From the NCBI GenBank assembly GCA_017623655.1, contig JAGAON010000003.1:1-64000 (forward strand): a stretch of 64,000 nt of DNA. Reading direction: 5' to 3'. Source of the stretch: Prevotella sp. (GTDB lineage Bacteria; Bacteroidota; Bacteroidia; Bacteroidales; Bacteroidaceae). A model generated the notes under the pieces. The model saw only the letters and a list, made by a program, of their open reading frames with translations. It had not been told where the DNA came from and made no database searches. A program made the translations under genes and the position numbers. Positions 6,898 to 22,834 of this stretch are shown in pieces (the first letter of the stretch is position 1; the number at the start of each line of letters is the position of its first letter).

Positions 6898-6904
6898 AGG
6901 AGTA

Positions 6905-6960
6905 ATTTGGAGTTAGCGGGAGGTAACGGGAGTTAGTTGGAGTTAGCGGACAATACATGA
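6905..6960. repeat. Fragment of family D (GGAGTTAGCGG) repeat
   Basis: Repeated GGAGTTAGCGG/GGAGTTAGTTGG words match the interior of the family D MITE-like elements at 36592-36768 and 57819-58014. No terminal inverted repeats are visible, so this is a fragment. Confidence 0.5.
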
Positions 6961-6975
6961 GCGTTTGTGATTGAT

Positions 6976-7000
6976 TGTAGGGACGCACCAAGGTGCACTG
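6976..7000. repeat. Family B hairpin half, left of the IS
   Basis: TGTAGGGACGCACCAAGGTG immediately abuts the left end of the insertion sequence. Its inverted partner abuts the right end (8387-8409). Confidence 0.7.
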
Positions 7001-7101
7001 GTGTCCCAAGAAAATCGTTAACATTCTGCATTATTCTTTGTAAATCAGTATGTTATTATGTATTTTGCAGTGCGGTGGATTTGAAAATGAGTTTATTGTG
7101 T

Positions 7102-7109
7102 TAATTTTG
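7102..7109 (+). promoter_or_regulatory. IS-internal promoter
   Basis: TAATTTTG with TTG at 7081-7083, 18 bp upstream, lies 24 bp before the transposase ATG and inside the IS. Confidence 0.6.
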
Positions 7110-7132
7110 CAGCAAACAGCAAAACCAATACT

Positions 7133-8320
7133 ATGACTCAAATCCCTTATGTTTTCAACCAGCTCACGCAGTGGATTCCCAAGGACGCGTTCGACCGTCT
7201 GGTCGGTATTTACCGCGGCAATGCCTATGTGAAAGACTACACATGCTGGAACCATCTTCTTGTAATGCTCTGGGCGCAGCTGACCTCGCGCCGCAGCCTG
7301 CGTGACATAGAGACCTCACTGCGCGCGCATTGTGACAAACTTTATCGCATGGGTATAGGCAGGCACGTCAGCCGTAATAACATAGCGAACTCCAATGCCA
7401 GGCGGGATGTGTCCATATACCGTGAACTCGCCTGCCGCATGATGTGCAGGGCTTCCTCTGTCAGGATGCGTGACAAAGGGCTTGCGGAACTCGCGGAGAG
7501 GTTTTCCGTAAACGGGTTCTTCGCCGTGGACTCCAGCACGGTAACCCTTAGTCTTGACCGTTGTCCGTGGTGCACTCCGCAGGAAGGCCGTGGAGGTGTG
7601 AAGCTTCACACCATGTACGACCTGATAAGGGAGACACCGAGGATATGCCTCATTACCGGGCATGAGGAGCGTGACCAGACATTCATGGAGGACTATCCTT
7701 ATGAGAGCGGCTGCGTCTATGTGTTTGACAAGGCATACATGAAGACGGCCGGACTGGCCGCCGTCAATGCCGCCGGGGGATATTTCATCGTGCGCAGGAA
7801 AAAGGACATACTGTATGACGTGCTGGAAGACAATCCTGCAGGAGGCGCTGTAATGGCCGACAGGACGATAAGGTTTTCCGGGCGTTGTACGAGAGGGGGA
7901 TACCCTGGGCCGCTCCGTATGGTATCATGCTACGTCGGGGGAAAGAACGAGGTCATGCAGTTCCTGACCAACAACACGGACATGCCGGCTGAAACGGTGG
8001 CGGCGCTATACAAACACAGATGGAAGATAGAGCTGTTCTTCCGGTGGATAAAGCAGCATCTGCGGATTACGTCCTTTTACGGAACATCCGCAAACGCCGT
8101 GATGGTACAGATATACACCGCATTCACCGCATATTGCGTACTGGCGCTTGCGGCGGACGCCTTGAAATACAAGGGAAGCCTGTATGACTTCTCCAATCTT
8201 GTCAGCGTGTCGCTTACGGAGAAGGTCTGGCTAAAAGACCTGATTACGAGATATGAAGACGCAAAAGGTGATTGGCATGACGAACGATGGCCGTCTTTGT
8301 TTGGAGAGGTAAGATATTAG
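7133..8320 (+). CDS. IS4-family transposase (DUF4372 type)
   Basis: A protein of 395 residues that catalyses cut-and-paste movement of the IS. The N-terminal 70 residues (FNQLTQWIPKDAFDRLV) match the DUF4372 module of Bacteroidota IS4 transposases. The DDE core is present: first Asp in FFAVDSSTV, second Asp in VYVFDKAYMK, and the Glu in the YREK-like block YKHRWKIELFFRWIKQ. The length is normal and there is no frameshift, so the gene is probably functional. It has its own promoter at 7102-7109. Confidence 0.92.
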   Translation: MTQIPYVFNQLTQWIPKDAFDRLVGIYRGNAYVKDYTCWNHLLVMLWAQLTSRRSLRDIETSLRAHCDKLYRMGIGRHVSRNNIANSNARRDVSIYRELACRMMCRASSVRMRDKGLAELAERFSVNGFFAVDSSTVTLSLDRCPWCTPQEGRGGVKLHTMYDLIRETPRICLITGHEERDQTFMEDYPYESGCVYVFDKAYMKTAGLAAVNAAGGYFIVRRKKDILYDVLEDNPAGGAVMADRTIRFSGRCTRGGYPGPLRMVSCYVGGKNEVMQFLTNNTDMPAETVAALYKHRWKIELFFRWIKQHLRITSFYGTSANAVMVQIYTAFTAYCVLALAADALKYKGSLYDFSNLVSVSLTEKVWLKDLITRYEDAKGDWHDERWPSLFGEVRY

Positions 8321-8386
8321 AGCCACATACAACAATCCAAATAATAAATATGGGATATGTATATGTTAAAATTTTTCTTGGGACAC

Positions 8387-8409
8387 CTGTGCACCTTGGT
8401 GCGTCCGCA
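8387..8409. repeat. Family B hairpin half, right of the IS
   Basis: CTGTGCACCTTGGTGCGTCC is the inverted counterpart of the sequence left of the IS. Confidence 0.7.
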
Positions 8410-8426
8410 ACGCGGCATAACATGGA

Positions 8427-8451
8427 GGACGCACCAAGGTACGTCCCTACA
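8427..8451. repeat. Family B hairpin
   Basis: GGACGCACCAAGGTACGTCC followed by CTACA is a canonical family B copy between the IS and the CPBP protease gene. Confidence 0.75.
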
Positions 8452-8498
8452 TTTATTCCCTTAACTCCCTATAAAAGTAACTCTCTAAAAATAAAAAA

Positions 8499-9344
8499 AT
8501 GAAGAAAGCAGTAATATATTTCATCGCATTTGTTGTAATGAACCTCGCCGTGTCATTCGGCGTGGATGGTATCTATACCTTGATATACGGCAAGGGTCAT
8601 GAGGCTGACACTACACAGTTGCTGATAATGTCGGGCACGGCATCGGCGCTGACGGTAATCCTTTTCACGGCACTTGGATGGTGTCCGGTGAGCAGGGACT
8701 ATATACGCAGCCGCCCGTGGGCGACATTCTTCTGGACAACGTTGCTCGCCCTTGGTACTATTTTGCCGCTGTCGTGGCTGGAGGGTTTCATACCCGATTC
8801 GCTGACGGAAGACTTCGCCGGCGAGATAATAACAAAAATGCTCGGTACGACGGAAGGCTATTTCGTCATTTGCATGCTGGCTCCCTTGGCGGAGGAGATT
8901 GTTTTCCGCGGCGCGATAATACGGCGGCTGGTGGAATGGGGCAGAACCATAAGGGAAAAACGCCTTGACACGATGGGAAAGAAGGGCGGGACGGCCCTTA
9001 CGGACAGGAAGATAGAGTGGGTGGCGATAATAATAAGCTCTTTGCTCTTTGCCCTTGCGCATCTTAATCCGGCACAGATGCCGCACGCGATAATTGTGGG
9101 TGTGCTGTTGGGGTGGCTGTTTGTGAAGACCGGCAGCATAATGCCGGGATTCCTGTTGCATTGGATAAACAACAGCATGGCATACGTAATGCTCAAGATG
9201 TTCCCGTATATGTCTATGGATTCCAAGCTGATTGCCTATTTCCACGGCAACAGTACGGCTATGTACCAGGCCATATTCAGTTCTTTGCTCATAGCCTTGC
9301 CGGCTCTGTACCAGCTGATTATAATGAAACGCAGGGCTTGGTAG
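8499..9344 (+). CDS. CPBP-family intramembrane metalloprotease
   Basis: A 281-residue polytopic membrane protein of the CAAX protease/bacteriocin-processing (Abi) family. The catalytic motif EExxxR reads PLAEEIVFRGAII (about residues 125-137), followed by the FxxxH-type motif LFALAHLNPAQ and a third conserved segment (LLHWINNSMAYV). About seven hydrophobic segments span the chain. Family members cleave membrane-embedded substrates; the natural substrate here is unknown. The gene is alone, downstream of the IS and family B repeats, with no clear -7 box of its own visible. A long segment (residues about 145-170) is charged and probably forms a cytoplasmic loop. Confidence 0.85.
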   Translation: MKKAVIYFIAFVVMNLAVSFGVDGIYTLIYGKGHEADTTQLLIMSGTASALTVILFTALGWCPVSRDYIRSRPWATFFWTTLLALGTILPLSWLEGFIPDSLTEDFAGEIITKMLGTTEGYFVICMLAPLAEEIVFRGAIIRRLVEWGRTIREKRLDTMGKKGGTALTDRKIEWVAIIISSLLFALAHLNPAQMPHAIIVGVLLGWLFVKTGSIMPGFLLHWINNSMAYVMLKMFPYMSMDSKLIAYFHGNSTAMYQAIFSSLLIALPALYQLIIMKRRAW

Positions 9345-9685
9345 CGTAAATAGGTGCGGCGGTTCTGCGGTTCAGCAAGCGTCCGCCACCGGCATTGTAG
9401 AGACGATGTGTATGTTAAAATGTGTGGTCATGTTGATAAATGCTATGCGGAAAGCCGGGAAGGACGGTGTAGCGCGGTACAGCGTATTTGCCCTTGTGTT
9501 TTAGTTATTTAGGAAGAAAAGGTATTGTGTTGTCATTGCGGGACTTTATGCAAAAATATTACGGAACAGTAACTTTTTTCTTAATACGAATCTTAAATTA
9601 TACTAAATATCATCGGGGGGGTAAACGTGGTGTTAATAATTGTTTATTATCGTGTAATGATTTTTTGTTTTTCATTATAAATGTT
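9345..9685. other. Intergenic region with nothing recognised
   Basis: About 340 bp between the CPBP protease stop and the promoter of the next lipoprotein gene. I see no family A-E repeat, no tRNA and no credible gene. A 74-codon open frame near 9488-9712 has no ribosome binding site or recognisable content. A weak GC-rich pairing just after 9350 could be a terminator. Confidence 0.4.
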
Positions 9686-9693
9686 TACCTTTA
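9686..9693 (+). promoter_or_regulatory. Promoter of the lipoprotein gene at 9748
   Basis: TACCTTTA, a one-base variant of the -7 box, with TTG at 9665-9667, 18 bp upstream. A purine-rich AAAGAAAGGG lies just before the ATG. Confidence 0.55.
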
Positions 9694-9747
9694 CACCACG
9701 AAAATCTATTGAAGAGAAAAAAATAACTAACAAAGAAAGGGAAACAA

Positions 9748-11184
9748 ATGAAAAAGATTAATTTCGGCACCATGCTGGCGATAGCCGTCATGGGAGTGGG
9801 TTTCGCTTCATGCTCAAGCAATGATGACCTTGATGGAAACAACAACGGTAATTTAGAGCTTAAACTGGCTCAGATGACAGAGGTGAAGTGTTATTCCGAA
9901 AGTGAAAAGAATGTAATCGGTGAAAATGAAACATGGTACTATAAAGTACAGGATTATCAGTACACCGGAGCGGAGCACAGACCCGCTGCTTACAATCTTT
10001 TTGCAGACAAAGCTCCGGCACAGGGTAATGGAGAGGCTGTGACGGAAGCTGAAAAAGCATTCGTTATGGACTATCTGAAGAACCATCCTAATGAGGGTTC
10101 CACGGAGTTCAACCACTACAACTACTTTATACAGTATGTAGGCGGTTCGTATGCTACATATAATATGGAATTCATACAGAATGGGGCTGTACATCATACA
10201 CAGCAGATTACAGGCTCAAACCATATTGATTTCATTGAATTCGTAGACCAGAATGGTAAAACAAAGCATATAAATGACTATAACGCAGGTTATGGACCAC
10301 GTGCTCTTGTGCTGAACCTGAAGATTACGGCTGCGAAGTTCCACGATTCATACGCCAACCTCACGTATGACAACAAGTACCAGTTCTATGTTATAAAGGA
10401 TGTGCCACAGGCTGACGGTACAACGGCTACTGGGTACTACCTCTGCTTTGATTACGCTACCAAGAAATGGGACAATGGCGATGGTGAGATTGCAGGTGAT
10501 GGCATATACAATGACTATGTGATAAAGATAACACCTGCGTGTGGTGTAATCGACCCGGACCAGCCGGACCAGCCGGTAGATCCAGATCCAGTTGATCCAG
10601 TTAATCCTGATGACCCGACAGAACCGGACGAGCCGGCAGTTGTAGTGACGAACGGCCATGTTGAGGTGAACCTCTCCGTGAAGGCTAACACTCCGGACTC
10701 TAAACTGTCAGTCCATGTACGTGACACTTGCGACTTCAAGGTATTCATACCTGTACCGGAGCAGTACTACTGCAATGTTGACGATATGTTCATCGTGGAG
10801 AAGCATTATGAGAACATGAGCTACAACGTTGAGCCTACAACAATGGAGCGCACGATAGTTGATAACAAAGTGACATTGACCGTGACATACAAGCCGGAAG
10901 GTATCTATGTAGAGTCCAACGGCATCAACGCAGAAGTGTTGGAGTACCTCCGCAATGTATATGGCGACGGTCTTACTTTCGAGGTTAACAACTACTTCAA
11001 TACTCTGATAACACGCAATGTGCTCATCGCATACCTCAACCAGTCAACGATAGAGTTCAAGAACGGACAGCCGAAGGAGTATATAAATACTATTGTAGAG
11101 GAGTATGAGGATGAGAATGGCAACATCATACAAAACGTGGATGCCGAAGGCAATAAGCTGGACTGCGTGGTAACAAGGAAATAA
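9748..11184 (+). CDS. Large lipoprotein of unknown function
   Basis: A protein of 478 residues that I do not recognise. The signal sequence ends in a lipobox (GVGFASCSSN), so it is lipid-anchored in the envelope. Residues about 25-260 form one domain rich in Tyr, Asn and Asp. A Pro/Asp linker follows (DQPVDPDPVDPVNPDDPTEP, about 270-290), and then a second domain of about 190 residues. The layout of two folded parts joined by a PD-rich linker suits surface-exposed Bacteroidales lipoproteins. It has its own promoter and a terminator-like hairpin (11254-11294), so it is probably monocistronic and separate from the polysaccharide operon that follows. Confidence 0.75.
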   Translation: MKKINFGTMLAIAVMGVGFASCSSNDDLDGNNNGNLELKLAQMTEVKCYSESEKNVIGENETWYYKVQDYQYTGAEHRPAAYNLFADKAPAQGNGEAVTEAEKAFVMDYLKNHPNEGSTEFNHYNYFIQYVGGSYATYNMEFIQNGAVHHTQQITGSNHIDFIEFVDQNGKTKHINDYNAGYGPRALVLNLKITAAKFHDSYANLTYDNKYQFYVIKDVPQADGTTATGYYLCFDYATKKWDNGDGEIAGDGIYNDYVIKITPACGVIDPDQPDQPVDPDPVDPVNPDDPTEPDEPAVVVTNGHVEVNLSVKANTPDSKLSVHVRDTCDFKVFIPVPEQYYCNVDDMFIVEKHYENMSYNVEPTTMERTIVDNKVTLTVTYKPEGIYVESNGINAEVLEYLRNVYGDGLTFEVNNYFNTLITRNVLIAYLNQSTIEFKNGQPKEYINTIVEEYEDENGNIIQNVDAEGNKLDCVVTRK

Positions 11185-11253
11185 ATCCGTATGGTGTGAC
11201 TGTCAGGTTATATATATAATGTATGAGGTCACTTTGATGAGAAAATAATAAAG

Positions 11254-11294
11254 AGAGCCTTGTCTGTAATAATTAACGTTACGGATAAGGCTCT
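11254..11294 (+). terminator. Hairpin terminator after the 9748 lipoprotein gene
   Basis: AGAGCCTTGTCTGTAA pairs with TTACGGATAAGGCTCT across a 9-base loop and is followed by a T-rich stretch. Confidence 0.7.
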
Positions 11295-11375
11295 TCTTTG
11301 TGATACAAACCGATGCTTTTCTTCGTTTTTACATTTTTTAATACGAAAAAGTTGGAAATGACGGAGGAAAAGAAT

Positions 11376-11383
11376 TACCTTTG
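11376..11383 (+). promoter_or_regulatory. Promoter of the exopolysaccharide-like operon
   Basis: TACCTTTG with TTG at 11352-11354. It precedes the five-gene run 11467-19069 and leaves a leader of about 75 bp. Confidence 0.6.
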
Positions 11384-11466
11384 TAAAGACTATATGTAGT
11401 CACGCTATATGTGAAAGTACTCGGCCGGGTTGTCCGCAAACCGGTTTGCTCGCTTTCATAAATGTT

Positions 11467-12732
11467 ATGGTTCAGATTCTTACTCAGACAATCCGATATA
11501 TTGCGTATGCCATGCTGTATTTGCAGGAAACGCTGACTTGTGCCGCCCAGTCCGATTTCGGTACGGTGGAATTTGCCGATTGGGAACTGATAGGATATTA
11601 TCTAAATCTGTTTGCAAACTACTATGCCGGTTATCCGTGGCAGATTTTGATGTCATATTCTATTGCCGTGTGCAGCATAATCTCGCTTGTCGTGCTCTTT
11701 TTCATGTTTGTGTTTAGAGTGTGGAAGCAGCAGCGCATAAAGAAGAAAGAGAAGAAGATGTATTCTGAATACTCCGGGAAACTGCACCATATCCTTGGTG
11801 CGGCAGAGATGATGACGCATGAGCAGATATTGGAGATATTGGGTAAGACCGAGGATGAGATAAGAATGACGGACGCCTATTACTATGCCAATATGCTGGA
11901 GGAAGCGCGTATGGCGATGTATGAGATAGTCTGTCTGCCGAATATGCAGGTGTTGGCGACCACGTTGGGTGTGTGCGACAGGTTCACATATCAGTTGTTG
12001 AAGCATAAGGATGTGTTCCGCACATTGCAGATGCTGCTGATGTTGCAGATAACGGTGAGCGAGGGATTGCTCGCCAACTATGTGAACCATACCAACCGGG
12101 AAATCAGGATGATGGCGCGACTGAACTATATCACGTGTTCAAGGAACGCTCCCTATCGCTATCTGCTTGTGGAACTGAACGAAGAACAGCCGCTGTACAG
12201 GCCGATGATACTTAACTACGTGTTTGGCTGGATGATGTTCCAGGACAGACTGATGCCGAACTTCCTGAACCTTGCCGACCGTGTGGAGAATGAAGACTCT
12301 GCGGCTTTCCTCGTAAGAGAGGTGGCTTTGTGGGGAAAGGAAAACGAGAAGGAAGAGGTAAAGGACTACTTTCTGGATAAAAGGCTGAAAGTAAGATCGG
12401 CGGCGATAGAAGTGGTGGCGACACTGGGTGATGTTTCCGCAGAGGACAAATTGGTGGAATCTTATTTCCAGCAACCGGAGCATATAAGGCAGGAGGTGCT
12501 GCGCACATTGCTGGCTCTCAACTCCGGCAAACGCACGGAGTTCTTCAAGGAGGCGTACGAGATGAGTTCTTCAAGGGAAACGCATGCCGTGGCGTTGCAG
12601 TGCTTGTATAAGTACGGTAATTCCGGCAGGCGTCTGTTTGAAATAATGCGTAATGAGGCTGACGAGGAGACAAGGATGCTGATCGACCAGGTTGACTCTA
12701 TGATTCTGCTGGAACAGTTGCAGGTACTGTGA
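11467..12732 (+). CDS. HEAT-repeat-like inner-membrane protein
   Basis: A protein of about 421 residues. One strong membrane segment lies near residues 60-85 (SIAVCSIISLVVLFFMFVF), with a shorter hydrophobic stretch at the N-terminus. The rest is soluble and alpha-helical, with repeated helix pairs (VRSAAIEVVATLGDVSAEDK, IRQEVLRTLLALNSGKRTEF) that resemble HEAT repeats, probably cytoplasmic. It is the first gene of the operon and lies 57 bp before the glycosyltransferase. I infer a scaffold or regulatory partner of the synthase, in the position where other systems have an accessory membrane subunit. An upstream TTG at 11446 is an alternative start. Confidence 0.75.
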   Translation: MVQILTQTIRYIAYAMLYLQETLTCAAQSDFGTVEFADWELIGYYLNLFANYYAGYPWQILMSYSIAVCSIISLVVLFFMFVFRVWKQQRIKKKEKKMYSEYSGKLHHILGAAEMMTHEQILEILGKTEDEIRMTDAYYYANMLEEARMAMYEIVCLPNMQVLATTLGVCDRFTYQLLKHKDVFRTLQMLLMLQITVSEGLLANYVNHTNREIRMMARLNYITCSRNAPYRYLLVELNEEQPLYRPMILNYVFGWMMFQDRLMPNFLNLADRVENEDSAAFLVREVALWGKENEKEEVKDYFLDKRLKVRSAAIEVVATLGDVSAEDKLVESYFQQPEHIRQEVLRTLLALNSGKRTEFFKEAYEMSSSRETHAVALQCLYKYGNSGRRLFEIMRNEADEETRMLIDQVDSMILLEQLQVL

Positions 12733-12789
12733 CGCTTCGTACAACCCGTAATCTAAAACCAAAGACCAATAACCAACAATCCCACGAAT

Positions 12790-14205
12790 ATGTGGCAGTT
12801 TATATTCACATTCTACGGATACTTCGTATTCTTTTATTCACTGTTGCTGATATTCAGTTATATATTTCTGATTGTCATGGCATACAGTTATACGTCGCAT
12901 TATAAGCGGTGGACGCTGGACTATGTGCAGCAGATGGTTGAGACAAGCCCGTTTACTCCGGGTGTGTCTATCGTGGCGCCGGCATATAACGAAGGTGTGA
13001 ACATTGTGGAGAATGTGAACTCGCTGTTGCAACAGAAGTATCCGAAGTTTGAGGTTATAATAGTGAATGACGGCTCAAAGGACGATACTCTGGAGAAACT
13101 GATAGACAACTTCAGCCTGATAGAGGTGCCTTACGACTATGTGTACCACATAAACTGCAAACCGTTCAAACGGCTTTTCCGTTCCACAGACTATCATTTC
13201 AAGAACCTGACGGTTGTAGATAAGACGAATGGAGGCACAAAGGCGGATGCGGTGAATGGCGGACTGAATGTTGCGCAGTATCCTTATTTCATCAATACCG
13301 ACTCTGACTGTATTCTTTCAAAAGACGCCATATACCAATGCGTGTTCCCCATATTGCTGAACCATGACATCATAGCCGTTTCCGGTACGATGAGTATGAG
13401 TAACGGCTTTGAGTTGAAGAATAACGAGATAGTAGAGTTCAAGACTTCGAGCAATCCCTTGGCGGTGTTTCAGGACTTGGAGTACAAACGCTCGTTCCTT
13501 GTGGGTAAGATGGGATGGTCCAATATCAACGCCATGCCTAACGTGTCAGGCGGATACGGTCTGTTTGACACCGGGGTGGTATTGGCCGCCGGTGGATATG
13601 GCTTTGACTCCTTTGCGGAGGATATGGACATGATATGCCGCATGATAAGGTACTGCTGTGATTTCGGCAGGCCGTATCGTGTAGTTCAGATTCCGCACAC
13701 ATGTTGCTGGACGGAAGGTCCGTCAACGCTGAAGGTGCTTTACAGACAGCGCACGAGGTGGGGGCGTGGACTGATACAGCTTATTCACCAGCATTGGCGG
13801 ATGGTGCTGCGTCCGAAGTACAGGCAGCTGGGGATGATAACGCTTCCGTATATCATCCTGTTCGAGTTTCTCGCTCCTATCATTGAGATGGTAGGTCTGG
13901 TGATGTTCATCTACCTTGTGCTCACAGGCGGTGTCAACTGGGACACGTTTTGGATTGTGTTCACCATGATGTATGTCTTTGCGGTGATGCTGTCGCAGTT
14001 TGTCGTATTTTATGATTATATACTCGGCAGTTCATACACCAAGGCTCGCTCATATTGGCGTTTGCTGGTGGCGGCGATGGTGGAACCTTTCACTTATCAC
14101 CCCATAATAACATATTGCTCCATCCGCGGATACCTTAACTATATCTTCCGCACAAAGGCGTCATGGGGTGCAATGACACGTAAACGTTATAACACGGGAA
14201 AGTAA
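12790..14205 (+). CDS. Processive family-2 glycosyltransferase (PgaC/BcsA-like)
   Basis: A 471-residue membrane glycosyltransferase that probably polymerises and exports a polysaccharide across the inner membrane. It has an N-terminal membrane segment (residues about 5-32). The GT-A core follows, with VSIVAPAYNEG, the nucleotide-sugar Asp in VNDGSKDD, the metal-binding DSD in INTDSDCIL, the acceptor motif AEDMDM (residues about 277-282) and the processivity motif QRTRW. Three to four C-terminal membrane helices come next. This order is typical of poly-beta-linked polymer synthases. No PilZ domain is visible, so c-di-GMP control through this chain is not indicated. Only 3 bp separate it from the outer-membrane protein gene. 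Confidence 0.9.
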   Translation: MWQFIFTFYGYFVFFYSLLLIFSYIFLIVMAYSYTSHYKRWTLDYVQQMVETSPFTPGVSIVAPAYNEGVNIVENVNSLLQQKYPKFEVIIVNDGSKDDTLEKLIDNFSLIEVPYDYVYHINCKPFKRLFRSTDYHFKNLTVVDKTNGGTKADAVNGGLNVAQYPYFINTDSDCILSKDAIYQCVFPILLNHDIIAVSGTMSMSNGFELKNNEIVEFKTSSNPLAVFQDLEYKRSFLVGKMGWSNINAMPNVSGGYGLFDTGVVLAAGGYGFDSFAEDMDMICRMIRYCCDFGRPYRVVQIPHTCCWTEGPSTLKVLYRQRTRWGRGLIQLIHQHWRMVLRPKYRQLGMITLPYIILFEFLAPIIEMVGLVMFIYLVLTGGVNWDTFWIVFTMMYVFAVMLSQFVVFYDYILGSSYTKARSYWRLLVAAMVEPFTYHPIITYCSIRGYLNYIFRTKASWGAMTRKRYNTGK

Positions 14206-14208
14206 GAC

Positions 14209-17184
14209 ATGAAGCATAGAATCATACATATAACCCTTATGGTTGTTCTGCTGTTTGGCTACGCCACGCAGTCGGGCGCTTTGTTCACCAAGTTCAAGAC
14301 TCCGGACTATTACGAGGCCAATACCCGTGAGCATTTCAAGCATAACAGATGGGTGGAAGGCAAGAAACTTCTGGACGAGGGATGGAAAGAATATGGTGAC
14401 CTGTCGGTAATGAACGAGTTGATGGGAAGATACTATTACCACTTCAAAAAGTATGACAAAGCGCGCTTCTATCTTGTGAGAGCCTTGCGTGATGACAATA
14501 CAAACACACAGGCAAGGGAGACGCTGGTGAATGTGGAAGAAGAAACACACAATTATTCCAGTGCCATCTGTTACATCAACGAACTGTTGGAAAGAAACCC
14601 TTACAGCAAGGGATGGTGGAGACGTAAGATTAATATTTACCGCAAACAGGGTAACAATATAGAGGCGGACAGACTGCTGACAAGGCTTCAACAGATTTAT
14701 CCTAATGACAATGCGGTAAAGAAAGACGTGGCGTTCCTGAATGAACAGAGGCTTGTCAAGCAGAAACGCAACGGCGATTTGAGCGGGCAGCTGGAGTCGT
14801 TGCAGAACCTTGTGAAGGCATATCCGGATAATCCGGAATACTATCTGTCGCTGTGCAATATGCTGTTACAGTCCGGCCGCATTGGAGAAGCGGCGGAAGT
14901 GGCGGGCAGGGGCGCACAACGCATGAGAAGCGCGGCACTTATGAGGAAACGCGCGGACATACTGGCCGAGCAGGGCAGATACACGGAGGCGATAAACTAC
15001 CTTAAAGAATGCCAGAGGCTGTACCATACATCATCACTGACGGCGGCGATAAACGAGATTGAGAAGACAGCGGCGGAGAATGCGCAGCTGAATGACCCAT
15101 ACTCATCCATGGCAAGGGTCTATGCCAAGCAACACTCTTCGGAAGCCCTGAACTACCTTCTCAATACCTCCATCTCAAGAGGATATTATGATGACGCCCT
15201 TATGTATATAAAAGAAGCGAAGGGCAAAGGCACAGGCTCGCAGGAACTGTTGTATAAGGAGTTTATCGTGAACCGAAGGCTGGGAAACAAGAATGCCGCT
15301 TTCTCACTGCTGACAAGGTTATACGCGATGAATCCGAAAAACGAAGAGGTGAGAGGCTATCTGTCTGAGATGAGATTTGATACTGCGAAGGAACTGATGC
15401 TTGAAGGACTGTATGCCGATGCCATACCCGATTTGTTGTTCGTTGAGGAAAATGCAGTGGAGAACGACATGAAGGAGGGGGCTATGACACGTCTGTATAA
15501 TTGTTATGTGGAAACAAAGCAGTATGAACAGGCATACGGACAGTTGGACAAGATAAAGTCGTTGCATGACCAGCCTTTTTATATTACGCAATACGCCTCT
15601 CTGTTGAAGGCGGAAGGGCGTACTGAAGCCGCATTGGCCGCATTGGCCGATGCTTACGGAAAGACAGACGACCCGCAAAAGGCGCAGTTGATAGCCTACC
15701 AATATGAGGAGTATGCGCTGCCATATATAAAAGATATGCTGGAGCGCGGCATGATACGCAATGCCAATAAAGCGGTGAAGAACGCATTGCTCGTGTGTCC
15801 TACATCAAACGGCCTGCTGCACCAAGCCATTACCACCTCCGATATTCTTGGATTGAAAGAAGATTATGCGGATATGGTTTCTGCCGGACGGGCAAAATAC
15901 CCCGAAGACCCTTTCTTCATAGTTAAGGAAGCGGGAATAATGGCTTCCAATGGCGATCATGCCAATGCCGTGAAAATGCTGCGTCCGGAACTTGACATTT
16001 ACTTGGGTGACTCAACCCTTGTAAGGGCTTTTTCCGAACACAGCCGTAACTTGGCGCTCGACCAAGCCAAGGCAAAAGCCTATAACTCAGCCATTGCCAC
16101 GCTTGACACCGCCCTTTTGTTCAATCATCAGGACAGGGAACTCCTTTACACCAAAGGACTTGTGTATGAGTCCATGCACAATTACGACTCGGCATACGTA
16201 TATCAGAAATATTACAAGCCCACGCTAATGGACTATCGGGAGCACAGCCGCCATTTGGAAGAATTGCAGGGAATGAGCTTCAACAACGAGATAACCATGG
16301 CGTATCAGCAGGCTCGTCCGGGCAGCGAGGATGTAATATCCGCCAATGCTTACGCCACATATCAGTTGAAAGGCAAGCGCAATGACTACACTTTCAGCCT
16401 TGCATACGCCGGACGTGACGGCTCGGCCATGGAAAACATGACAAAAGAAGAGGTGGAGTCAGGCGGTACGGGCATAATGCTTGGCATAGACTGGCATCAC
16501 CGTTTCAAAGACTCGCCATGGGCATTCACCGTTGGCGCCTCATGGGCAAGCAAATATTTCCCGGAGATTACGTTGCGGGCTGTCGTGGAACGCGAAATGT
16601 GGGACACATGGTTGTTTAATGTTCACGCCAGTTTCCGCCGCATACATGCCTACACACGCAGATATAAATGGATCGTAAACACGGAGAAGGCTTCTCCCAA
16701 TGACCCTGACTATGTGTATTCATTCGACGGTTGGCAGCATAAATACGAGGGTTTGACGCAAGTGGGACTGTCTGCCCAGCGTACTATCAACCGCTTCATT
16801 GTTCAGGGAAGCGTTGACGCTTTCAACATGAACAAGAAACTATACTTTAACGGTTCGCTTAAAGGCCAGTTCTTTCCGATGGAAGGTAGCCGCACACACG
16901 TCTTTGCCTCAGGTGGTGTAGGCACAGCCCCGCAGACGGAGTTGCTTGACAATTCCATGCCGGCAGGCTTCAGCAAACTCAACACCTTTGTGGGAGCGGG
17001 GCTGATGTGGTTCTTCAACAGGCATATTGCGGGCGCACTTACCGGGACATGGTACACCATGTATAGCTCTCAGGAGGTGCAGACAGGAATATGGGGGGGC
17101 GACTATTCAACCATCAGTTCCAGTTCAAATACCGAATATAAGAATATGTATTATATCCAAGGATCGGTCGTTGTAGCGTTCTGA
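14209..17184 (+). CDS. TPR plus YaiO-like beta-barrel outer-membrane protein
   Basis: A 991-residue protein with a signal peptide (MKHRIIHITLMVVLLFGYAT). Residues about 30-700 are helical repeats of TPR type. The last 270 residues alternate like an outer-membrane barrel (YATYQLKGKRNDYTFSLAYA, many aromatic girdle residues) and end in phenylalanine, the usual BAM signal. The same order, TPR superhelix then barrel, is found in PgaA, the export pore for poly-N-acetylglucosamine. The barrel part resembles YaiO, encoded beside a glycosyltransferase in E. coli. The adjoining GT2 gene makes a role as polysaccharide export channel likely. The polymer's identity is not shown by the sequence. Confidence 0.85.
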   Translation: MKHRIIHITLMVVLLFGYATQSGALFTKFKTPDYYEANTREHFKHNRWVEGKKLLDEGWKEYGDLSVMNELMGRYYYHFKKYDKARFYLVRALRDDNTNTQARETLVNVEEETHNYSSAICYINELLERNPYSKGWWRRKINIYRKQGNNIEADRLLTRLQQIYPNDNAVKKDVAFLNEQRLVKQKRNGDLSGQLESLQNLVKAYPDNPEYYLSLCNMLLQSGRIGEAAEVAGRGAQRMRSAALMRKRADILAEQGRYTEAINYLKECQRLYHTSSLTAAINEIEKTAAENAQLNDPYSSMARVYAKQHSSEALNYLLNTSISRGYYDDALMYIKEAKGKGTGSQELLYKEFIVNRRLGNKNAAFSLLTRLYAMNPKNEEVRGYLSEMRFDTAKELMLEGLYADAIPDLLFVEENAVENDMKEGAMTRLYNCYVETKQYEQAYGQLDKIKSLHDQPFYITQYASLLKAEGRTEAALAALADAYGKTDDPQKAQLIAYQYEEYALPYIKDMLERGMIRNANKAVKNALLVCPTSNGLLHQAITTSDILGLKEDYADMVSAGRAKYPEDPFFIVKEAGIMASNGDHANAVKMLRPELDIYLGDSTLVRAFSEHSRNLALDQAKAKAYNSAIATLDTALLFNHQDRELLYTKGLVYESMHNYDSAYVYQKYYKPTLMDYREHSRHLEELQGMSFNNEITMAYQQARPGSEDVISANAYATYQLKGKRNDYTFSLAYAGRDGSAMENMTKEEVESGGTGIMLGIDWHHRFKDSPWAFTVGASWASKYFPEITLRAVVEREMWDTWLFNVHASFRRIHAYTRRYKWIVNTEKASPNDPDYVYSFDGWQHKYEGLTQVGLSAQRTINRFIVQGSVDAFNMNKKLYFNGSLKGQFFPMEGSRTHVFASGGVGTAPQTELLDNSMPAGFSKLNTFVGAGLMWFFNRHIAGALTGTWYTMYSSQEVQTGIWGGDYSTISSSSNTEYKNMYYIQGSVVVAF

Positions 17185-17207
17185 TTACACAAAATTACAA
17201 TACTTTC

Positions 17208-18464
17208 ATGCGTTTACTACATATCATATCCATCTCTTTCCTCCTGCTGTCTGCATGCAGCAGGGCGGCAGTTACCGTGTCAAAACCATTCCAGTTCCGC
17301 GCTTTGTGCACTCCGACCAATGCCAATCCCAAGGAATTTGGTTTGGACAGCACGCACAATGTGGATAACGATTGGGGCTTGTGGGGACACAACCTGTGGA
17401 AAGTCATAGGCGAGGACGCTCCGGAAGAGGTTTATGCCTTGATAGGAACCAAGCGTGACAGCACACAGTACTGCTTTTCCACGCCCAAGATGTATGAAAT
17501 CATTGACAACTGGATATCAGACCAATGGGGGCCGAAGGGATGGAGATTCACCATCATGCCCGCCGACAACAAGAAAGTATGTCAATGCAAGCTGTGCCTT
17601 GCGGCAGGCAATACAAAGGATAATGCTACACCTGCCGTGGCCGCTTTGCTCGACAAACTTGCGAAGAAATACCCCGGACACCAGTTTTTCATGACGGCAT
17701 ACCACACCACCAAGCAGCCGCCAAGGCGCAAACTGCCACCTAATGCCGGCGTGATGCTGTCAACCATGGATATTCCCATGCGTTACATATTTAATGAAAG
17801 CGGCGGCTACCGCAAGTTCGATGCCATGGTGAAAGCATGGAAAAACGTTACGCCGTTGCTGTATGTATGGGAGTATGACCGTAACTTTGACGATTATCTG
17901 ACACCTTACCCCTGTCTGATGATTATGCAGCAACGCCTGAAATACTACCAACAGGCAGGCATCACAGGAGTGTTCATCAACGGTAGCGGCAACGACTATT
18001 CCACCTTTGACGATGTGCAGTCATACGTCTTGGCAAAACTGTTGCTTGATGTCAATGCGGATGTGGAGGCGTTGGTCAGGCAGTTCTATGCCAAGTACTA
18101 TCCGGAATGCGGCAAACTTATAGGCGACTATTATCTGTCACTCGAAGAGAAACTGCGCCGTACCAACCGTGTCATGCCTTACTATGGCACGATAGAGGAG
18201 ACCGTCGCCTCATATCTTAATCCCAAGGAATTTGTGGACTTCTGGGTCTCACTCGACAAGAAAAGCAAAAGCGTCGGCGGAGAGGAGCGCCAGCGTGTCA
18301 ACCGTATGCTGACAGCGATGGCTTACACCCGCCTGCAACTGAAACCATCGGAACGCGACAGGGAAGAAATGATAATCATCCTGAAAGATTATAAGAGCGT
18401 TCCCGGCCTGTTGAACTATAAGGAAACCAACGGCTCGTTGGAGAAATACCTTAAAGGCAAGTAA
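17208..18464 (+). CDS. DUF4838-type lipoprotein, probable glycan-active
   Basis: A protein of about 418 residues. The signal sequence ends in a lipobox (LLLSACSRA). The body resembles the DUF4838 family: a DNDWGLWGHNLWK block, a Cys motif (KVCQCKLC), and a C-terminal part rich in aromatic and acidic residues (LLYVWEYDRNFDDYL) suggestive of a carbohydrate-binding barrel. DUF4838 proteins are often found with glycoside hydrolases. In this operon it takes the place held by PgaB, the lipoprotein that deacetylates or cleaves the polymer during export. I infer a polymer-trimming or polymer-binding role and cannot name catalytic residues. It starts 23 bp after the barrel gene. Confidence 0.7.
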   Translation: MRLLHIISISFLLLSACSRAAVTVSKPFQFRALCTPTNANPKEFGLDSTHNVDNDWGLWGHNLWKVIGEDAPEEVYALIGTKRDSTQYCFSTPKMYEIIDNWISDQWGPKGWRFTIMPADNKKVCQCKLCLAAGNTKDNATPAVAALLDKLAKKYPGHQFFMTAYHTTKQPPRRKLPPNAGVMLSTMDIPMRYIFNESGGYRKFDAMVKAWKNVTPLLYVWEYDRNFDDYLTPYPCLMIMQQRLKYYQQAGITGVFINGSGNDYSTFDDVQSYVLAKLLLDVNADVEALVRQFYAKYYPECGKLIGDYYLSLEEKLRRTNRVMPYYGTIEETVASYLNPKEFVDFWVSLDKKSKSVGGEERQRVNRMLTAMAYTRLQLKPSERDREEMIIILKDYKSVPGLLNYKETNGSLEKYLKGK

Positions 18465-18484
18465 ATCAAAAACGTGAGAACAGC

Positions 18485-19069
18485 ATGAGAAGCAGAAGAC
18501 ATAAATGGAGGATTCTTGTGGCAGTGTCCCTTGTCGTGACACTGTTTGCAGGTGTGTCATGCAACAAAAAACTGCCCCTGACAACCATAATGGTGCAAGA
18601 CTCCATCCGTCACTATTATCCATTGGTGCAAGGCACCGACCTTACCATGCTTTGGCGCATAGCCAATACTGGCGAGACACCGCTCGTGTTGAGTGACATA
18701 CAGCCCTCGTGCGGATGCCTTGTCACTAACTCGGACGACAAGATAGTCGTGCCGCCGGGAAAAGACGCACTGCTCGAATTCGTTTATCACAGCAACGCCA
18801 ACTCCGGATATGTCAGGCATACCATACGCCTCTACGGCAATATCGTCCCCCAAGGTATGGCCAGTCTCGTCTTTGACCTCAACGTCGTAGTCCCCGCATT
18901 GGGCAGTCCGGACTACGAGGAACAACACAAGGACCGCAACGAATATGACGTTATGACGGGTGTGAAGAACCTTGTTGACGGTTATGAGAACCAACGCGGC
19001 TACTGGACGGACGAGAATGACTACTCCCGCGGCTATAACAAGTATTATTGGCACAAGGGAAGGAAATAA
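18485..19069 (+). CDS. DUF1573 lipoprotein, last gene of the operon
   Basis: A 194-residue lipoprotein (lipobox near LFAGVSCNKK). The middle 100 residues are an immunoglobulin-like DUF1573 domain with the hallmark IQPSCGC after an NTGETPL strand. The C-terminal 45 residues are polar and rich in Tyr, Asn and Asp. DUF1573 domains are common in Bacteroidota envelope proteins and have no fixed function. Its place 20 bp behind the DUF4838 gene ties it to the polysaccharide operon, perhaps as an assembly or periplasmic bridging factor; that is inference. Confidence 0.75.
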   Translation: MRSRRHKWRILVAVSLVVTLFAGVSCNKKLPLTTIMVQDSIRHYYPLVQGTDLTMLWRIANTGETPLVLSDIQPSCGCLVTNSDDKIVVPPGKDALLEFVYHSNANSGYVRHTIRLYGNIVPQGMASLVFDLNVVVPALGSPDYEEQHKDRNEYDVMTGVKNLVDGYENQRGYWTDENDYSRGYNKYYWHKGRK

Positions 19070-19115
19070 AAAGAAATACTAATGTACGTTCTATGATTTT
19101 CCAAAAAATAATTCG

Positions 19116-19123
19116 TACCTTTG
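19116..19123 (+). promoter_or_regulatory. -7 box upstream of the zinc-finger protein gene
   Basis: TACCTTTG, about 310 bp before the ATG at 19431. If used, it makes an unusually long leader. Confidence 0.45.
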
Positions 19124-19430
19124 TCCCATCATCTTGACAAACTGCCGCTATTACAGCATCGCTCCGTCACGGATGCGACAAATACACTAACACTAAAAAA
19201 GGAGGTAAACAAACAGAAATACCCACGGAACGCCACGGAACACGACAGTCGGAAGACCGCATTCCGCAGTTGTAGAATCAATCGGCCGCAATCATGCGGC
19301 GAATTATTAACAACGAAAAAGCGTCTCCACTCTTTTCTTGAAAATAACATATTGAGCTTTTAGCTCTTGTATTAAGGAATATAGCTAGAACCATTAGGAG
19401 TTGCGCCCGACACGGATAAGGGAGTCACAA
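19124..19430. other. Long leader or remnant region
   Basis: About 300 bp between a -7 box and the next gene. A purine-rich AAAAAAGGAGG sits near 19194-19204 with no convincing gene behind it. An 80-codon open frame across 19121-19363 shows no recognisable content. It may be an untranslated leader or debris of an insertion; I see no repeat family here. Confidence 0.35.
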
Positions 19431-20075
19431 ATGAAGAGATTTATATTGATTTTGATTTCATTATTGCTTCTGTATTTTTTCTTCAATGAAAACGGTTCTT
19501 GTGAACAGAATACTGATGAAAACCAAGTGGAAACTGCAGAAGAACAAGTGGAAACCGCAGAAGAACAAGTAGAAACTGATGAAGAAATTAGTACAGAAAA
19601 TGTTACTGAGGATAAATACTATGTTTTCAATTTGGGTATGATTACTCAAGAATGGTGGGAACATCCTGACGGAAGTATTACCATAAGATGTAGAACTTTA
19701 TGTACTGCTTGTAGCGGAAGAAATGTTTGTAATATATGTCAGGGGACAGGTAATGGATATAGCATGTTGGTAGGAAGTGGACGTTATATGCCGTGTCCTG
19801 CATGTGGAGCAACTGGCCAGTGTGGAACTTGTCATGGATTGGGATATAGAGAAACAGTCAAAATCTGGCAGCCAGGAGAAGCGGAAGCTTATATAAAAGC
19901 CCATAAAGAAGTGGAACAAGAGTACCGAAATCAGGGAGGGCGTAGGCTTGGCAAACCTCATCGTGGAATTCGAGTGAAAGAATATAGCCCGAATTATACA
20001 GGCGAATATGAAGAGGTTTGGTGCGAAGAATGTAAGGGCTATGATGCTCCACATTATCATAGATGGAAACAATAA
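19431..20075 (+). CDS. Exported DnaJ-type zinc-finger protein
   Basis: A protein of about 214 residues. The N-terminus is a signal anchor or weak lipoprotein signal (MKRFILILISLLLLYFFF). Next comes an acidic heptad repeated three times (VETAEEQ, VETAEEQ, VETDEE), encoded by a 21-bp tandem repeat at 19527-19586. The core has paired Cys motifs resembling the DnaJ central zinc finger (CTACSG, CNICQGTGNG, CPACGATGQC, CGTCHGLGYR) and a last pair CEECKG near the end. Exported proteins with this finger occur in Bacteroidales; function is unknown. Base composition is AT-richer than the neighbours, which suggests separate ancestry. Confidence 0.75.
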   Translation: MKRFILILISLLLLYFFFNENGSCEQNTDENQVETAEEQVETAEEQVETDEEISTENVTEDKYYVFNLGMITQEWWEHPDGSITIRCRTLCTACSGRNVCNICQGTGNGYSMLVGSGRYMPCPACGATGQCGTCHGLGYRETVKIWQPGEAEAYIKAHKEVEQEYRNQGGRRLGKPHRGIRVKEYSPNYTGEYEEVWCEECKGYDAPHYHRWKQ

Positions 20076-20098
20076 TTTACGTTATTTAAGAATTTATA

Positions 20099-20500
20099 AA
20101 GACAAGTGATAACATCTTGGTTTCGGGATGTAAGAACACCGTCATCTCCTCAAGCGTGACATACATTGGAGACTGAGCTTTTTATCTTTACGATGATTCT
20201 TTGGACGACATATACTGTTATGGTTCTATTCCTGCATATAATGGTAGTGAAGCATTCTCACATACCACATACAGCAATTGCACGCTCCATGTGCCTTACG
20301 GGACAATAGATAGATATAAAACCGTAGACGGTTGGAAGAATTTTGCTAATATTGTAGAATTTGACCCGACAGGTATAGAGGCGGTATCAGCAGACAGAAA
20401 GCCCGCGACGGAGCGGAGAATATACAACCTCGGCGGAGCGAGAATGACTGCACCGCAGCGTGGTTTGAACATCATCAACGGTAAGAAGGTGGTGTATTAA
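20099..20500 (+). pseudogene. Remnant of a BspA-type leucine-rich-repeat surface protein
   Basis: Only the 3' end survives. The frame reads an LRR_5-type repeat (NTVISSSVTYIGD, then AFYLYDD) interrupted by an in-frame TGA at 20174-20176. It continues to a C-terminal tail (YNLGGARM...GLNIINGKKVVY) of the kind that ends many secreted Bacteroidales proteins. No start codon or N-terminal signal remains upstream, because another gene ends at 20075. A separate short gene starting at the TTG at 20201 is possible but unlikely. Confidence 0.7.
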
Positions 20501-20536
20501 GTGCAGAGCATACCGCAATTATTTTTTCTTTCATTC

Positions 20537-22834
20537 TCAGTTCTGGAACTTGCTGATTCCGCGCAACATGTGCCTCATGGAACTCAGCAACTCCTGCGAC
20601 TCCTGCACAATAAGCAGGAAGACCGTCGTGGATTCTATGTTGACCTGCCCGCGCTGTATGTCGTCAATGATTCGCTTGCGGTAACCGGAGATGGAAGACT
20701 GCAAGGCCATCGCATCCGCTCTCAGCGTGTCGGCCGCGGCAGCATTGCCGTCGGTGAGGAAATCCTCCGCACGCCGGTATATCTTGAGTATCTCGTTGCG
20801 GTAACTCAGAAAAGATGTGACATATTTCCTGTCGATAGGCATGAAACTGTTGCCCACGTGTTCGCTGCACGGTTCGTTGATGCGTTTCAGACAGTACAGC
20901 ATCTGCCCCACCGAGTTGTTTCCGAGGAAGTACCATGTGTTACGCTCCATCGCCAGTATGGGATTAACCTTCCGCAGTCCTATAATCTCACGTCTCCGCT
21001 GGCGTTTCAGCTCCTTGCGTTCCTCCTCTATCTCCGTTGCGGCACGCCTCAGGCGGCGGTACTCCTCGTTGAGGAAGGCGTCGGTGATGCCTTCGTACGT
21101 CTCCGCCACAAACCGCAGGTGTGCGGTGTTGCTCACGCGTATGTGCCTGCACAGCAGCTCCCAGCGCTTGTCCTCGTCAGGCTCACGCAACATCTGCCGG
21201 AATATCATGTCGTTCTCGCGTACCGTTGTCTTCTTCTTCGCATAAGCTATGTTACTGCGTATAATCAGCACTATGGCTGTCACCACCGCCACAAACATGG
21301 CGAAGAATTTGCCGAAGAACATAAGGTTGGTAATGATATAGCACATCACGAATGCCGCACCTGCCGTGATGAACCATCCTCCGATGACGGACAGCATACC
21401 GGTTATGCGGAACACGGCGCTCTCCCGCCCCCATGCACGGTCGGCGAGTGACGCACCCATAGCAACCATGAATGTCACGTATGTCGTTGACAGGGGCAGT
21501 TTCAGGGAAGTGCCGAGGGCTACCAGCAAGCCTGCCAGCACAAGGTTCACCGCCGCCCTTATGTGGTCGAAGGCCGCACCTTCCTCCAATGTGGCGGCGT
21601 CAGCGTTGAAACGCGAGTTCACCCATCTGCTTACAGGTGCAGGAACGATGCCCGACACCTTTGCGGACACCTTCATGGCATGACGTACCAGCAGGCGTGC
21701 CACGACAGAAGAGCCGAACATCTCGTCGCCCTCGTCACGGCGGCTAAGGTCAACACTTGTCTTTACCACGTTCTGCGCCTTCTTGGAGAACAGCAGTGCC
21801 AGCACCATCACCACGCCGGCAAGTACAAGATAAATCATCGGTGTCTGTGCGCTGTCCATCAAACTCACCATCAGGAACGTGCCGGCGTTGCCGTTGCCGT
21901 GCGCGATGTAATCCTTGTAAGACTCCAGTCCCGTCAGCGGCACACCCACAAAGTTCACAAGGTCGTTGCCGGCAAAAGCCATGGCAAGCGCGAAAGTGCC
22001 GAGCAGCACTACGAATTTCAGCACCGGCACACGCAGTGCGCTGAGCAAAGTCATCACCACGGAGAACGCACCTATGCCGCCGCCTATTATGTACCACGTG
22101 TTGTCATTTATGAAATCCTTTGCCTCCGGGGTCATCAGTGTGGTGCCTTTCAGACCGTTTATCAGCAGGAACCAGATGATAATCGTCACCGCGATGCCGG
22201 AGAAGACACCTATTTTCAATGAGCTGCTTGTCAGTCCGCCCATATTCCCGTCAGCGCAGGTGGTCTTGCCGTTCACGCGGTAAGTGAAGGTAAAAACCAG
22301 ACGGGCAATCCATTGCACCAGCGTTCCGACCACAAAAGCCACTCCCACGCTGAGGAATATGCCGAGAATCACGCTCAGGGCCTTCTCCGTATTCAGCAGG
22401 TCGCCAAGTGTGAGCAGCGTCCCGTCAGCGCCGGTGGTACCGCTTATGATTTTCAGCAGTGCTATGGCGAAAGCTCCGCCAAGCAGTTCGAACACCATGC
22501 TGACAGTGGTTGACGTGGGCATACCGAGCGTGTTGAACACGTCAAGCAGTATGACGTCCGTCACCATCACGGCAAGAAACACGCACATCACGTCATAAAA
22601 GGAGAAATACATCGGCGTCAGAATGCCGTGTCTCGTCACGTCCATCATGCCGTTGCTCATTGCCGCACCGGCGAAGATGCCCACGGCGGCCACGATGAGG
22701 ATAGTCCGGAACGCGGCCACTTTCGCCCCTATGGCGGAGTTGAGGAAGTTCACCGCGTCGTTACTGACACCGACCACAAGGTCGAAAATCGCCAAGACGA
22801 TAAGGAAAATTACGATTCCCAAGAAAAAAATGTC
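20537..22834 (-). CDS. PiT-family inorganic phosphate transporter with C-terminal cytoplasmic extension
   Basis: A protein of about 765 residues. The N-terminal 540 residues are a PiT/PHO4 permease with the family signature GVSNDAVNFLNSAIG near the start and a second related repeat (LPLSTTYVTFMVAMG), about 10-12 membrane helices in all. It probably imports phosphate with a cation. The last 220 residues are soluble and helical, resembling a PhoU-like regulatory bundle (ERKELKRQRRREIIGLRKVN), which may replace a separate PhoU. The ATG at 22834 is chosen because the -7 box lies at 22871-22878; the longer frame would start inside it. Confidence 0.88.
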   Translation of the reverse strand, partial: DIFFLGIVIFLIVLAIFDLVVGVSNDAVNFLNSAIGAKVAAFRTILIVAAVGIFAGAAMSNGMMDVTRHGILTPMYFSFYDVMCVFLAVMVTDVILLDVFNTLGMPTSTTVSMVFELLGGAFAIALLKIISGTTGADGTLLTLGDLLNTEKALSVILGIFLSVGVAFVVGTLVQWIARLVFTFTYRVNGKTTCADGNMGGLTSSSLKIGVFSGIAVTIIIWFLLINGLKGTTLMTPEAKDFINDNTWYIIGGGIGAFSVVMTLLSALRVPVLKFVVLLGTFALAMAFAGNDLVNFVGVPLTGLESYKDYIAHGNGNAGTFLMVSLMDSAQTPMIYLVLAGVVMVLALLFSKKAQNVVKTSVDLSRRDEGDEMFGSSVVARLLVRHAMKVSAKVSGIVPAPVSRWVNSRFNADAATLEEGAAFDHIRAAVNLVLAGLLVALGTSLKLPLSTTYVTFMVAMGASLADRAWGRESAVFRITGMLSVIGGWFITAGAAFVMCYIITNLMFFGKFFAMFVAVVTAIVLIIRSNIAYAKKKTTVRENDMIFRQMLREPDEDKRWELLCRHIRVSNTAHLRFVAETYEGITDAFLNEEYRRLRRAATEIEEERKELKRQRRREIIGLRKVNPILAMERNTWYFLGNNSVGQMLYCLKRINEPCSEHVGNSFMPIDRKYVTSFLSYRNEILKIYRRAEDFLTDGNAAAADTLRADAMALQSSISGYRKRIIDDIQRGQVNIESTTVFLLIVQESQELLSSMRHMLRGISKFQN

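Follow-up and report, generated by a model that had tools for sequence, protein, structure and literature searches.

How Bacteroidota make and control synthase-dependent polymers is little understood. Cyclic di-GMP (c-di-GMP) signaling is rare in this phylum. The closest described systems are those of the PgaABCD/IcaADBC type, the Escherichia coli yaiO-yaiX-yaiP-yaiS locus, and NfrA/NfrB; in the first of these, the TPR-barrel partner PgaA acts in polymer export, with a scaffold role for its TPRs, according to the available part of PMC9384988. Here we analyzed a five-gene operon of Prevotella sp. (GenBank assembly GCA_017623655.1) carried on positions 1 to 64,000 of contig JAGAON010000003.1; this whole stretch of 64,000 nucleotides (nt) is referred to below as the window. 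In a literature search that largely lacked subscription papers, we came across no account of a synthase system built on HEAT-GT2 or DUF4838-GT2, and the terms Bacteroid, Flavobacter, and HEAT have zero occurrences in the synthase-operon survey PMC7112194. On the strength of sequence comparisons, and with a probability of roughly 70%, we propose that the operon encodes a synthase-dependent exopolysaccharide system, making a beta-linked polymer that is plausibly N-acetylhexosamine (HexNAc) based, in which a HEAT scaffold would be the dedicated partner of the synthase.

The operon comprises five co-directional genes in the open reading frame (ORF) list, separated in order by 57, 3, 23, and 20 nt:

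11467 to 12732, plus strand: HEAT protein, with a single transmembrane (TM) helix near the N terminus and HEAT repeats after it, probably on the cytoplasmic side
12790 to 14205, plus strand: GT2 membrane synthase of 471 amino acids (aa), processive type, PgaC/IcaA-like, with QxxRW (Pfam, NCBIfam, motifs)
14209 to 17184, plus strand: protein of 991 aa with a TPR superhelix, presumably periplasmic, and a C-terminal YaiO-like outer membrane beta-barrel (Pfam/NCBIfam, profile alignment)
17208 to 18464, plus strand: DUF4838 (GH163-type) lipoprotein of 418 aa, short form (Pfam; lipobox by eye)
18485 to 19069, plus strand: DUF1573 lipoprotein of 194 aa (Pfam, 6e-13; lipobox by eye)

A sequence-only reading of the window had described five tightly spaced genes with these domains, and the ORFs, Pfam, and NCBIfam bear it out. 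It had also noted the lack of PilZ, deacetylase, and acyltransferase domains, and a Pfam scan reported none for the five proteins. The HEAT ORF extends from a TTG start at 11446 to 12732, with an ATG at 11467 that lines up with the L031 start (L-numbers denote fetched loci of relatives). Its one hydrophobic segment covers residues 72 to 90 of the 428-aa ORF, and HEAT_2 matches two stretches (5.5e-5, 23.8 bits). The lipoboxes of the DUF4838 and DUF1573 proteins, judged by eye, are LLSAC and AGVSC. The nearest named relatives are the Prevotella metagenome-assembled contigs L031 and L032, with GT2 identities of 94 and 92%. In 6 of 10 comparisons of the window with these two, the ratio of nonsynonymous to synonymous divergence (dN/dS) was 0.02 to 0.07; dS was saturated in the remaining 4, including both HEAT comparisons.

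To survey the synthase, GT2 matches were counted at a threshold of E ≤ 1e-60, with four to ten candidates at most scored per genome. They occurred in 94 of 395 genomes in a phylum sample, 46 of 393 in an order sample, and 9 of 150 in a genus sample, the window's own genome being counted each time; the gene is widespread yet patchy. We fetched 80 regions holding 81 of the 106 phylum-sample matches (the window's own is among the other 25), 31 of 48 further order-sample matches, all 8 further genus-sample matches, and 3 named contigs. This gave 122 loci and 124 GT2 rows, with the window excluded; L033 (tandem GT2), L084 (broken gene), and L144 (two clusters) contribute two rows each, and L087 contributes none. 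Families were called on mechanical ORFs with models built from the surveyed loci, so remote members may be missed; generic TPR or receiver matches are possibly overcounted, and the receivers include multidomain proteins.

The HEAT gene stands immediately upstream of GT2 in 115 of the 124 rows, as it does in the window. When a profile built from 15 GT2-adjacent HEAT proteins was run over the 395-genome phylum sample, it gave 74 matches of at least 78 bits, a threshold picked after the list was inspected, and 72 of these lie directly upstream of a same-strand GT2 match. Such matches are present in 65 of the 94 genomes with GT2 (29 have none at this score) and in 0 of the 301 genomes without it. 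The count overstates a blind test, because the threshold was post hoc, the training proteins were GT2-adjacent, and at most four candidates per genome were scored. Despite these caveats, the complete lack of matches at this level in GT2-less genomes is striking. The sequence-only reading had cast the HEAT protein as a stand-in for a missing Pga component; it is instead a near-constant GT2 partner across the phylum, and HEAT-GT2 is a real, conserved, phylum-wide family with an apparently undescribed synthase partner.

The exact order HEAT-GT2-TPR barrel-DUF4838-DUF1573 occurs in 13 of the 122 loci (L031, L032, L034, L035, L036, L083, L085, L086, L110, L111, L114, L115, and L116). They come from the genus, a second genus of its family, three more families of its order, and one family beyond that order, so the gene order, which the sequence-only reading had singled out for checking, is kept far beyond close relatives. 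Several other loci come near it: L087 has all five genes, with the GT2 frame masked by overlapping ORFs; in L082, DUF4838 and DUF1573 are on the opposite strand; the L112 cluster ends at DUF4838 as genes were called; and L033 and L037 read receiver (REC)-HEAT-GT2-TPR barrel-DUF4838, without DUF1573. DUF1573, another proposed stand-in, was found only with the long type of TPR barrel seen in the window (13 of 13 rows).

A quick maximum-likelihood tree of 124 GT2s (SH-like approximate likelihood ratio support only, midpoint root; the window included and the 83-residue fragment of L084 left out) places the long TPR-barrel type in one group of 21 rows with support of 96, consisting of 20 with the barrel, including the window, plus L113. 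It pairs, with support of 90, with a group of 11 rows, 8 of which have HEAT-GT2-YaiO-DUF4838. In all 8 of these flavobacterial-type loci, a full-length DUF4838 gene is followed by a receiver gene. Far from standing alone, the operon is one clade of a Bacteroidota-wide family with HEAT-GT2 as its core, mostly joined by a receiver gene and a YaiO-type barrel, which we name REC-HEAT-GT2-YaiO.

Receiver-domain genes are in the run of 89 of the 124 rows, but only in 4 of 20 long-barrel rows (two in L033, one in L037, and one, downstream, in L110) versus 85 of the 104 others; for short receivers the figures are 4 of 20 versus 81 of 104. Scans with Pfam and NCBIfam found no receiver among the five window proteins or two upstream genes. 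Of 97 short receiver ORFs, 92 have D at one alignment column and 91 have K at a second; by analogy with CheY, we take these residues to be the phospho-acceptor and its lysine. L037 and L033 branch early in the long-barrel group, keep an upstream receiver gene, and have no DUF1573. These data suggest that the branch leading to the window lost a stand-alone receiver and gained DUF1573, a reading that depends on the tree root. At the other end of the window, at 58331 to 61450 and distant from the operon, there is a hybrid histidine kinase with a receiver domain.

The synthase itself carries a Pfam GT2 domain (7e-21), QRTRW at residues 320 to 324, and DxD and ED motifs. All 14 aligned members share VNDGS, DxD, ED, and QxxRW without variation, and QxxRW is present in 121 of the 124 rows; together with the C-terminal TM segments, it identifies the protein as a processive-type synthase. 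Its best full-length family match is PgaC/IcaA, although its score against the PgaC_IcaA model TIGR03937 (120.8 bits) is far under the equivalog cutoff of 422.3. When the GT2 profile was compared with ten E. coli Yai, Pga, and Nfr proteins, only PgaC (126.7 bits) and YaiP (52.7 bits) matched; blastp gave 26% identity between the window GT2 and PgaC. Some relatives depart from the single intact gene. L033 (7529 to 10491; [Flexibacter] sp. ATCC 35208) has a tandem pair of GT2 genes of the HEAT-GT2 family in one cluster, and in L084 and L113 the gene is broken by a stop, possibly through decay or assembly error. In L043 (7036 to 10521), L044 (5612 to 9409), L046 (8617 to 12051), and others, GT2 is fused to a C-terminal membrane sulfatase-fold domain.

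The TPR-barrel protein matches several TPR families in Pfam, and its barrel covers about residues 690 to 991. A barrel profile of 15 window-type relatives aligned with one of 16 Bacteroidota YaiO-type proteins at 99.8% probability (E = 1e-30); 8 of the 15 barrels match Pfam YaiO singly, and the L035 barrel scores 37.2 bits against TIGR04390 (cutoff of 32). On this profile evidence, the window barrel appears homologous to the YaiO barrels of the HEAT-GT2 family. A YaiO or long TPR-barrel gene lies within five genes of GT2 on the same strand in 84 of the 124 rows and on the opposite strand only in 16 more. In a PDB profile search, the best 60 of 193 matches all belong to TPR or repeat proteins and do not include PgaA. 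The sequence-only reading had placed a TPR-barrel protein at the core of a PgaABCD-type system; by sequence and profile, TPRs and an outer membrane barrel are both predicted, and the barrel looks YaiO-like by profile and does not reach the PgaA equivalog level.

The same reading had taken the hydrolase to be absent. The slot appears to be occupied, because DUF4838 is CAZy GH163, a family with a characterized member acting on N-acetylglucosamine (GlcNAc): in the part of PMC10154615 available to us, a GH163 enzyme of Bacteroides thetaiotaomicron cleaves GlcNAc-beta-1,2-Man. A DUF4838 protein is also annotated as GH163 in the accessible text of PMC9870897; many GH163 hits of a literature search may stem from GH16 subfamily 3, written with no underscore. 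The window protein matches DUF4838 at 137.6 bits (7e-40; cutoff of 26.6). DUF4838 lies within five genes of GT2 on the same strand in 27 of the 124 rows (25 loci), and 28 matches were found in 61 genomes of a family-level sample. D120, W221, Y223, two Cys, and other residues are invariant over 25 aligned operon members, and these residues, including the Cys motif, are also kept in 14 DUF4838 proteins of the family sample. The flavobacterial operon protein of L038 has a GH20b-like N-terminal domain which, judged by length, is missing from the short window form; such short forms are found in the window and most loci of its genus (418 to 575 aa; 739 aa in L111). A PDB profile search with the DUF4838 alignment gave 11 matches at E ≤ 1, the one strong match being 6q63, over a C-terminal stretch; none is a solved relative of the DUF4838 barrel. 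The available portion of PMC9870897 also reports that, in Polaribacter dokdonensis cocultured with algae, MED152_03905 (GT2) was upregulated 8.8-fold and MED152_03915 (DUF4838) 18.5-fold, both being classed by the authors as carbohydrate-active enzymes. As far as can be read from the locus tags cited there, the two may share one such operon, with one gene between them.

Polymer synthesis and export by the GT2 and TPR-barrel proteins, as the sequence-only reading had it, seems the best account of the motifs, domains, and profiles. In the proposed mechanism, the GT2 would polymerize a beta-linked, plausibly HexNAc-based chain from a cytoplasmic nucleotide sugar and move it across the membrane via a channel of its own. 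Anchored by its one TM helix and with its repeats in the cytoplasm, the HEAT protein would act as a dedicated scaffold or regulator of the GT2. The TPR arm of the outer membrane protein, for which we propose a scaffold role because of the analogy with PgaA (as that protein is presented in the available part of PMC9384988), would take up the chain in the periplasm, and the YaiO-like barrel would export it. The DUF4838/GH163 lipoprotein would trim or release the chain, and the DUF1573 lipoprotein would be an accessory gained in the window branch, where the stand-alone receiver was probably lost. A HexNAc polymer is favored because of the PgaC likeness and GH163.

A broader model, tentative and a little short of an even bet, is that these are a distinct Bacteroidota synthase class with a membrane-tethered HEAT subunit. 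An ancestral CheY-like receiver would switch the synthase through HEAT by phosphorylation, replacing the c-di-GMP that acts through PilZ or PgaCD elsewhere; in the window branch, the receiver would have been lost, the TPR arm would have become longer, and a DUF1573 lipoprotein would have joined, with a GH163-type protein common to this branch and the flavobacterial sister clade.

A number of observations weigh against these proposals. In L052, a distant relative that belongs to another class, the gene directly downstream of GT2 encodes a PAS and GGDEF protein (5902 to 8634), a predicted diguanylate cyclase, which speaks against general c-di-GMP-free control; c-di-GMP may act in part of the HEAT-GT2 family. 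The patchiness of GT2 extends to the genus itself (9 of 150 genomes, own included). Among all 94 HEAT matches reported, 75 are GT2-adjacent and 19 are not; 7 of the 124 rows (L048, L101, L118, L128, L177, L182, and L185) have no HEAT call in the run; and the HEAT_2 score of the window protein falls under the curated Pfam cutoff of 27.7. Taken singly, the window barrel has no Pfam match. With hhalign, the window-type barrel profile reaches single E. coli YaiO, PgaA, and NfrA at 0.1, 6.9, and 0.2% probability, respectively; the probability is just 19.9% when the Bacteroidota YaiO profile itself is compared with E. coli YaiO. In the DUF4838 protein, residue 222 is Glu, whereas it is Asp in 24 of 27, and the length of 418 aa compares with about 735 aa in many relatives.

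A further point against a HexNAc product opens the strongest alternative. A domain resembling phosphoglycerol transferase (MdoB) or LtaS is present, fused to GT2 or encoded nearby as a separate gene, in 27 of the 124 rows, and it suits a glucan equally with a HexNAc polymer; two proteins score 47 to 57 bits against phosphoglycerol transferase I and a third scores 35.7 bits against LtaS, all under the cutoffs. Because of these genes in relatives, the product may be a glucan bearing phosphoglycerol or a similar group, comparable to osmoregulated periplasmic glucans, in which case DUF4838 would act on or only bind the glucan and the HexNAc guess would be wrong. Weak matches of the GT2 profile also extend to cellulose and hyaluronan synthases. 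We consider this alternative unlikely, given that PgaC/IcaA is the best full-length family of the GT2, that GH163 activity is reported on GlcNAc (in the available part of PMC10154615), and that the window operon has no sulfatase-fold transferase.

Less probable still is a role in glycosylation, in which a short glycan would be joined to a protein or lipid acceptor at the surface, handled by the barrel protein, with no long polymer secreted. Nonprocessive members do exist among GT2 families, and the last two proteins are both lipoprotein-like; against this, QxxRW with C-terminal TM segments is typical of a processive synthase, and a TPR-barrel partner is known for polymer export (PgaA, in the accessible text of PMC9384988). 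We rejected as highly improbable a role in glycan catabolism, with DUF4838 breaking down host N-glycans and GT2 a bystander: GH163 is known in N-glycan use by B. thetaiotaomicron (as far as the available part of PMC10154615 goes) and the L038 operon protein scores as high against Pfam DUF4838 (306.5 bits) as unlinked ones, but SusC and SusD families are not among the five genes, HEAT-GT2 linkage persists without DUF4838, and the window protein is divergent (138 bits).

Two elements upstream of the operon were identified by consensus match:

11253 to 11295, plus strand: terminator-like stem-loop of 18 pairs, closing the upstream gene at 9748 to 11184
11351 to 11383, plus strand: Bacteroidetes-type promoter-like element, GTTG-N21-TACCTTTG, downstream of the terminator-like stem

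Terminator-like sites number 16 in the region versus 7.8 expected. The promoter-like pattern, assumed to represent the Bacteroidetes consensus, has 3 matches in the window versus 0.43 expected, and at least 3 occurred in 2 of 100 shuffles. The gene at 9748 to 11184, directly upstream, encodes a putative lipoprotein of 478 aa with no Pfam match, and the terminator-like stem separates it from the operon. About 3 kb upstream of the operon, at 7133 to 8320, lies a DDE transposase (DUF4372 and DDE_Tnp_1), which may bear on the patchy distribution of the operon. An Rfam scan of 9000 to 21000 found nothing. Ten hand-picked accessory ORFs of relatives were scanned, with no deacetylase or acyltransferase found and three lacking a Pfam match. 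Genes of 373 to 395 aa with no Pfam match stand beside the cluster in L137 (10655 to 11824), L141 (4122 to 5240), and L164 (4613 to 5797), and genes of similar size are present in other relatives.

In about one-quarter of the sampled phylum genomes (94 of 395), the HEAT-GT2 pair points to a candidate synthase subunit and to possible control by a two-component route. A biosynthetic role is likewise offered for DUF4838/GH163 proteins, which are treated as glycan degrading in the available portions of PMC10154615 and PMC9870897.

Among known systems, PgaABCD/IcaADBC (poly-beta-1,6-GlcNAc) has in common with the operon a PgaC-like GT2, a TPR and beta-barrel outer membrane protein, and a glycosidase-family lipoprotein. 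Membership was nevertheless rejected, in agreement with the sequence-only reading. Both the GT2 and the barrel protein score far under the PgaC and PgaA equivalog cutoffs, the latter matching the PgaA model TIGR03939 at 24.9 bits (cutoff of 366.65) over residues 80 to 177 of the TPR part only. No PgaB-type deacetylase/hydrolase domain was found in the five window proteins, nor does the DUF4838 profile match E. coli PgaB; the five proteins match no PgaD model, and the HEAT profile does not match E. coli PgaD. The HEAT, DUF4838, and DUF1573 profiles match none of the E. coli Pga proteins. The E. coli yaiO-yaiX-yaiP-yaiS locus resembles the operon in having, by annotation, a GT2 near the YaiO outer membrane protein. 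It differs in that YaiP is a weaker GT2 match than PgaC, hhalign with E. coli YaiO alone fails, and the HEAT, DUF4838, and DUF1573 profiles match none of YaiO, YaiP, and YaiS. NfrA/NfrB likewise combines a glycosyltransferase with a large outer membrane protein, and the Bacteroidota YaiO profile matches NfrA at 25.5 bits, probably via TPRs; NfrB, however, is annotated as c-di-GMP activated and is not matched by the GT2 profile. With GH163 enzymes, the operon shares a DUF4838 domain above the Pfam cutoff and common acidic and Cys residues, whereas the window protein is synthase linked and short, its GH163-type activity being a prediction. The five genes form a variant of the synthase-dependent export type and not a new category.

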